A stretch of 64,000 nt of DNA, taken from NCBI GenBank assembly GCA_950022495.1, contig CATLLJ010000002.1:62001-126000 (forward strand). The letters run 5' to 3'. The position numbers and the translations under genes were made by a program. Numbering within the stretch: position 1 is the stretch's first letter; each line of letters opens with the position of its first letter. The notes below the pieces were generated by a model that had not been told where the DNA came from, ran no database searches, and saw nothing but the letters and a program-made list of their open reading frames with translations. Below are positions 3,234-4,101 of this stretch, in pieces. This DNA is from an uncultured bacterium (lineage in GTDB: Bacteria; Cyanobacteriota; Vampirovibrionia; Gastranaerophilales; Gastranaerophilaceae).

Positions 3234-4039
3234 TTATTTTAGATAATTAAACCAGTAACTTCCTGCACCTTCCGGATTTTTATCGTTCAATGCGAAATGA
3301 GCACAGGTATGAGTAACACCTGTAGTCTCATAACTGCAATATTTAGCGATTTCTTCATCATCTGTCAGTTGTCTGGTCAAAGTATTCCAAGATGAACCTT
3401 TATATGGAACAACAGCATTTGTTTCGGTAAATACAAAAACAAACCTATCATAACCCCACCTATTAGGTTTATCTATCCCGTTTGTATCAATACAGATTTT
3501 TGGACCGAAATCAAAACCATAAACTGCAGCCATATCATCTAATGAATACAATCTTCCGACCATATCCGTATAAATAACAGATTGATCGCAAGGATATTGT
3601 CCCGTAGTAAGACCGGCCAAATTTAGATTTATTATATTGTTATTTCTATCAAAAACTGAAGGAGTTAAATTGCTATCGGTCGCACCTTTATAATAAGACA
3701 TAAACTTATGTAAGGATGCTGTCGAATTCCATGTACCAGAATATAATGTATCTTGATAATCCTTAAACGGAATATCCTCATAGGCGTAGAATGCTCTGGC
3801 TGCCCTGTTTAATTCCGCATAAGCTTTAAAAAATTGTGATTTTAATTTCTGCTTAGTCAAATGAGACATCAAATTCGGCATTGTTATAGCCGCAACAACT
3901 CCAATAATTCCAAGAGTAATCAACACTTCTGCAAGAGTAAAACCTGCTGCAGAAAAATTAAATCGTCCAAAAGCAAGAGAGAGAAGCTTTAAAGGGTTAC
4001 CCCCCCCCCGAATTTCACGTTATTCTTGAATTTCAACAT
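3234..4039 (-). pseudogene. Type IV pilin-like gene, out of frame at a poly-G tract (possible phase-OFF allele)
   Basis: The body of a type IV prepilin. After the leader comes G|FTLAEVLITLGIIG, the prepilin peptidase site with Glu5, then the hydrophobic helix 'VVAAITMPNL' and a soluble domain with several cysteines. The only good start is the ATG at 4039, which has AGAGGAG seven bases upstream. Translation from it passes through a run of ten G and stops after 16 codons. With eight or eleven G the frame continues through '...NPLKLLSLAFGRFNFSAAG' into the pilin, giving about 267-268 residues. So this copy is either switched off by slipped-strand mispairing or carries a sequencing error. The pilin segment alone could only start at a TTG at 3926, inside the conserved helix and past the cleavage site, which is implausible. 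Confidence 0.75.
4000..4009 (-). repeat. Poly-G tract of ten in pilin leader codons
   Basis: Ten consecutive G on the coding strand, placed between the start codon and the prepilin cleavage site. It is the only long G/C homopolymer I saw in this AT-rich window. Its length sets the reading frame of the pilin gene: 8 or 11 is in frame, 10 is not. Confidence 0.95.
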
Positions 4040-4101
4040 AATTCATCTCCTCTTATAACTTATAAAAAGTATAATATATTTTTCATATCTTTGCAAATAG
4101 T

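Follow-up and report, generated by a model that had tools for sequence, protein, structure and literature searches.

In this locus a type IV pilin gene of an uncultured member of the Gastranaerophilaceae is cut off from its own start codon by a run of ten guanines, and the question it raises is whether the gene is switchable, is read in some other way, serves as a silent store or is a product of error. The window analysed, a stretch of 64,000 nucleotides, was compared with the rest of its genome and with related genomes, and the G10 tract is, with good confidence, a slippage-driven contingency (phase-variation) switch of the pilin.

Architecture of the tract-bearing pilin locus

The locus lies on the minus strand and comprises the following features, given in the order of transcription.

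4068..4097, minus strand: sigma-70-like promoter match TTGCAA-17-TATACT, 5' of the start; a consensus match only, the number of such matches being not above that in shuffled sequence
4047..4052, minus strand: Shine-Dalgarno (SD) sequence GAGGAG; the SD-ATG-C-G9 pattern recurs in 92 of 288 genomes of the family
4037..4039, minus strand: ATG, start codon of the switched frame
4010..4039, minus strand: ten leader codons, MLKFKNNVKF, 5' of the tract, the last being TTC; paralogous leaders have similar codons
4000..4009, minus strand: G10 tract (C10 on the plus strand); G8 and G11 place the pilin in frame, whereas G9, G10 and G12 do not
3989..3999, minus strand: two-frame stop module TAACCCTTTAA, read as GNPLK in the pilin frame
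3964..3999, minus strand: core conserved at the DNA level, TAACCnnTTAA[AG]GC...GnGTTTTnGCG, common to paralogous leaders
3942..3999, minus strand: remainder of the prepilin leader as read in the ON state (GNPLKLLSLAFGRFNFSAAG), as far as the site of the prepilin peptidase
3237..3941, minus strand: mature type IV pilin of 235 aa, FTLAEVLITLGIIGVV..., starting with FTLAEV (assigned by PF07963 and orthologues)
3234..3236, minus strand: pilin stop codon

Translation of length variants yielded a single ORF of 267 or 268 aa with G8 or G11, whereas translation with G9, G10 and G12 ended after 13, 16 and 14 codons, respectively, in exact agreement with the preliminary description, which had joined the start codon and its ribosome site to the pilin frame only at 8 or 11 G and let translation with 10 G end after 16 codons. 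The tract length in the genome is G10, and the pilin is therefore OFF. The earlier placement of the run in the leader, ahead of the prepilin peptidase site, also stands, with the tract at 4009-4000 and FTLAEV from 3941. The tract is followed by TAACCCTTTAAAGC and then by the prepilin FTLAEVLITLGIIGVV 58 nt past the tract, and within the stop module the TAA at 3999-3997 ends one wrong frame and the TAA at 3991-3989 the other.

The product is identified as a type IV prepilin by the Pfam N_methyl family (PF07963, 22.9 bits at a cut-off of 21.2, passed with the leader residues included), and orthologues within the genus share 55–66% identity. The AlphaFold2 model (pTM 0.71, pLDDT 70) contains an N-terminal helix of 53 residues (3–55) together with strands, and its top fold match in the PDB is a weak one to the Dichelobacter pilin FimA (E 0.038). 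The genome encodes four pilus ATPases of the T2SSE/PilB-T type over the cut-off and a prepilin peptidase match below it (22 vs. 26.5 bits). The pilin fragment previously reported elsewhere in the window was not recovered, as a six-frame motif scan of the window returned no second prepilin.

Abundance, frame and spread of the poly-G leaders

The G10 tract is the sole G-run of at least 8 in the window, where 0.21 matches were expected and 3 observed, a number reached in none of 100 shuffles. In the whole genome (1.93 Mb, 22 contigs), 14 distinct G-runs of at least 9 were found against 0.67 expected under a first-order model. Twelve of these 14 lie in prepilin leaders, at the same place ahead of FTLAEV (P about 1e-31, with about 52 prepilins in the genome), so that the search for tracts in other pilin leaders, suggested earlier as a check, was positive. 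Among the twelve, L015 is without a clear start and L020 has a pilin broken further downstream, and none of the 11 tract pilins with an assignable state is in frame. The other two runs belong to genes for a small secreted protein and a hexapeptide acetyltransferase, both in frame, and the other prepilins scanned in this genome have ordinary short leaders, in frame and free of a tract.

The pattern GGAG-N3-11-ATG-N20-40-C-G9 was detected in 92 of the family's 288 genomes, which span 21 of its 41 genera, with a maximum of 71 copies (G243), while the reversed pattern, used as a control, gave 0–3 per genome; the same class had one match in 79 genomes outside the family. These copy numbers count switch-bearing starts and not pilins alone, some loci lying in non-pilin genes or being ambiguous, and pilus subunits form the majority of the tract genes examined in the family. 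Poly-G runs per genome vary from 0 to 56 within the genus. Many of the loci fetched from other genera showed the same layout before FTLAEV (SD-ATG, about 30 nt, C and G9-13) with flanks that are no longer alike, so the G-run, rather than its surroundings, is the conserved part. The core G5TAACCnnTTAA[AG]GC was considered as an essential element and dropped, since it hardly occurs beyond a few species of a single genus, while the G-run with its SD-ATG is present in 21 genera whose flanks are unrelated. The congener G001 matches the koala-faeces MAG Zag_111 (PMC4040986). The record of G014 (JAMPCZ01) is titled Muribaculaceae, yet it groups with the present genus of Gastranaerophilaceae, and many of the 38 tract copies on its contigs (L105-L142) lie less than 200 bases from a contig end, as the near-identical leaders break the assembly. 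A search of IMG/VR returned non-pilin background only; related viral contigs (L457, L500 and L543; L449 and L542) carry SD-ATG, about 30 nt and G tracts that differ in length, G12 vs. G10 in one group and G11 vs. G14 in the other, suggesting that poly-G phase variation may possibly occur in phages as well.

The pilin frame behind the tract is kept open. Five leaders (L106, L112, L115, L116 and L007) are swollen between the tract and FTLAEV by dispersed palindromic repeats, such as GTCATTCTGAG... and CTGGATTGCTTCGC...CGCAATGAC, with the pilin frame open, and resemble the in-frame palindromic elements of Rickettsia. No stop occurs in the pilin frame of swollen leaders of 247, 424, 601 and 419 nt, while the other frames contain 5–7, 7–14, 15–17 and 4–23 stops, respectively; translation across the tract is thus under selection, as the pilin frame stays open for up to 601 nt while the two other frames are stopped. 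In 103 of 107 classified copies (the genus together with G165) neither wrong frame reaches FTLAEV without a stop, and the TAACCnnTTAA module stops both at once in 57 of 66 copies of the element, almost all of them from the genus. The wrong-frame stops are the two TAAs of this module in most copies and different stops in G001, and such two-frame stops would make for a tight OFF state. Leaders of up to 601 nt are unusually long for prepilins, which was counted against a switch. Two further kinds of leader were noted: those of L003, L054, L057 and L065 carry, ahead of the real FTLAEV, an additional degenerate copy, FTLAEG, which looks like a duplication of the junction, and the orphan leaders L361, L362 and L367 (G163) run from SD-ATG-G-tract directly into a terminator-like hairpin, with no pilin.

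Tract lengths differ between otherwise similar copies. Copies with near-identical flanks have unequal lengths in 23 of 155 pairs overall and in 3 of 4 between-species pairs. Among the copies with such flanks, the lengths are 11 vs. 9 for the G044/G045 orthologues, 9 vs. 8 for G010/G012 and 12 vs. 9 for copies of G101, and in G013 the in-frame L305 (G10) is near-identical to the out-of-frame L308 (G11). In-frame and out-of-frame copies co-exist in G044, G013, G101, G066 and G163, and a single subfamily can display both states, as with G10 ON and G9 OFF in G044, and likewise in G013 and G101.

In-frame copies are nevertheless scarce. Of the 142 tract pilins, from 13 genomes, for which both the start and the pilin frame are clear, 11 are in frame, against 25 expected when lengths were shuffled among the loci of each genome (P below 5e-5); when G001 was set aside, the 11 compare with 15.4 (P 0.02). 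Because the tract copies arose from one another by duplication, the P values overstate independence and are guides only. In G001 none of 45 loci is in frame against 10 from shuffled lengths, and length 10 is used at loci where it gives OFF and is missing where it would give ON, as are 11 and 12. Among the other poly-G genes 13 of 22 are in frame, a count that omits three pilin-like entries (Fisher P 1e-7 against the tract pilins). The tract lengths of the pilins specifically avoid the ON value, and for this shortage slippage alone would be insufficient, with selection for OFF or another mechanism needed.

The leader itself behaves as an exchangeable unit. The orthologous pilin has a tract leader in the present genome (G10) and in G001 (G11, OFF), and an in-frame leader free of a tract in G005, G014, G034, G039, G044 and G045. 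Absence of the tract from close relatives had been named as grounds for abandoning the switch; it is indeed absent in these six congeners and present in G001, a distribution read as a leader swap. As orthologous pilins carry the tract leader in some congeners and a plain one in six, the switch has been gained or lost through exchange of the leader as a swappable module, as would be expected of a contingency element, and recombination at the start of the mature pilin, where the first codons are strongly conserved, would make such exchange possible. The poly-G core was also seen at the 3' end of surface-glycan genes, L090 (1496) and L093 (1497) in G044 and L100 (1497) in G045, the contexts being a KdsB-like gene before a CMP-sugar synthetase-like gene and a tandem pair of related genes; the reading frame differs there, and tract length would alter the C-terminus or the coupling to the next gene. 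On account of these positions a mobile DNA element was considered for the core.

Probable slippage and the alternatives

The reading of the tract as a likely phase-variation switch, already offered in the preliminary description, is supported by the tracts in 12 prepilin leaders, the recurrence in 21 genera, the open pilin frame and the near-identical copies that differ in length. Slipped-strand mispairing in replication would alter the length of G10; at a length of 8 or 11 G a ribosome starting at 4039 would read through the leader into the pilin, and with any other length it would meet one of the two stops just past the tract within 16 codons. After translation in the ON state the leader would be cut off before FTLAEV, and the mature pilin would therefore be identical whatever the ON length. 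About a dozen prepilins would be switchable in this way in the present genome, related genomes would hold as many as about 70 genes with such a switch, and with each copy OFF in most genomes a cell would express few of many alternative pilins. A default-OFF, slippage-driven pilin repertoire is the most likely explanation for the family; we infer that replication slippage drives the length changes, that switching takes place within populations, and that the pilins are expressed, assembled into pili and directed towards the host.

The strongest competitor, itself unlikely, is recoding, in which the DNA length could stay constant, the OFF genes would be steadily expressed at a low level by RNA polymerase or the ribosome slipping on the G-run, and in-frame alleles would be selected against owing to pilin overproduction. 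It fits the avoidance of in-frame lengths, above all the empty in-frame class of G001, and the near fixation of G9 in G045 (17 of 17 scored tracts) and G014 (29 of 35), which is less spread than free slippage might give. Against it, in-frame alleles do exist in 11 of the 142 tract pilins, and long G-runs are not known as classic sites of transcript slippage in bacteria. The special case of a programmed ribosomal frameshift in one direction was rejected, as both offsets stand side by side in the same genomes: one G less or one more is needed at 34 and 11 loci in G001 and at 3 and 8 in G000 (0 and 17 in G045).

A silent archive, with the tract pilins as unexpressed donors recombined into an expressed locus as for Neisseria pilS and the tract either silencing them or marking the recombination site, is considerably less probable still. 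It would agree with nearly all copies being out of frame, with the exchange of tract and plain leaders between orthologous pilins and with the conserved DNA core around the tract, but each copy has its own SD, ATG and open frame to the pilin, needless for a promoterless archive, and the other scanned prepilins of the genome are in frame with plain leaders. That the gene is dead, or in frame and misread in a homopolymer, a class of sequence prone to sequencing and assembly error, is scarcely credible. Every one of the 11 scored tract pilins of this genome is out of frame, in contrast to its two non-pilin poly-G genes and to most other poly-G genes; the OFF majority returns in the separately assembled multi-copy genomes G001, G013, G044, G045, G066, G101, G163 and G174; and the 235-aa pilin frame is otherwise intact, with conserved orthologues.

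Related systems and significance

The proposed switch of the pilin has several known counterparts. In Neisseria pilC1/pilC2 a homo-guanine run also lies where a type IV pilus gene encodes its leader, sets the frame ON or OFF and leaves the mature protein unaffected (PMC5354566), but PilC is a pilus tip/assembly protein present in two copies, whereas here the prepilins themselves carry the run, about 12 of them, in an unrelated phylum. The opa genes of Neisseria are likewise a surface multigene family with a slippable leader repeat in each copy, none to several being expressed per cell (PMC5354566); they differ in using CTCTT pentamers and in encoding up to 12 outer-membrane proteins, in place of a homopolymer, pilins and scarce in-frame alleles. 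The poly-G loci of Campylobacter jejuni, also an AT-rich gut bacterium, range from G8 to G12 and are mostly 9–10 long, with 1e-4 to 1.6e-3 indels per division and insertion/deletion biases that hold the tracts at G9-G10 (PMC8355987), and the lengths of 9–12 seen in the present family are similar; its 18–39 poly-G genes per strain have their largest groups in flagellar and capsule loci, in contrast to the one paralogous pilin family with a common leader layout found here. The pilin itself is switched, as here, in Moraxella bovis by inversion and in Neisseria pilE/pilS by gene conversion, although these systems use DNA inversion or recombination and not tract length (PMC11868660). An incomplete literature search found no paper on this kind of phase variation in Gastranaerophilales/Melainabacteria, and the host lineage, the prepilins as target, the copy number, the exchangeable leader and the scarcity of in-frame alleles would be new.

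The broader picture, for which we give about even chances, is of up to about 70 switches per genome, mostly in prepilins, built on a transferable poly-G leader with wrong-frame stops, with ON kept rare by selection and one or a few pilins made per cell, similar to antigenic variation in a lineage not known as a pathogen. The rarity of ON alleles poses the question whether it stems from immune or phage pressure, from attached cells being lost to faecal sampling or from mutually exclusive expression. For annotation, many pilins per genome may carry wrong, downstream start codons. If the switch is real, tract length per locus, host and time would provide a cheap read-out of switching from existing metagenomes, the 50 or more prepilins in these small genomes would be accounted for, and a common, hardly cultured gut lineage related to cyanobacteria would possess one of the largest known phase-variable gene families, consisting mainly of pili.
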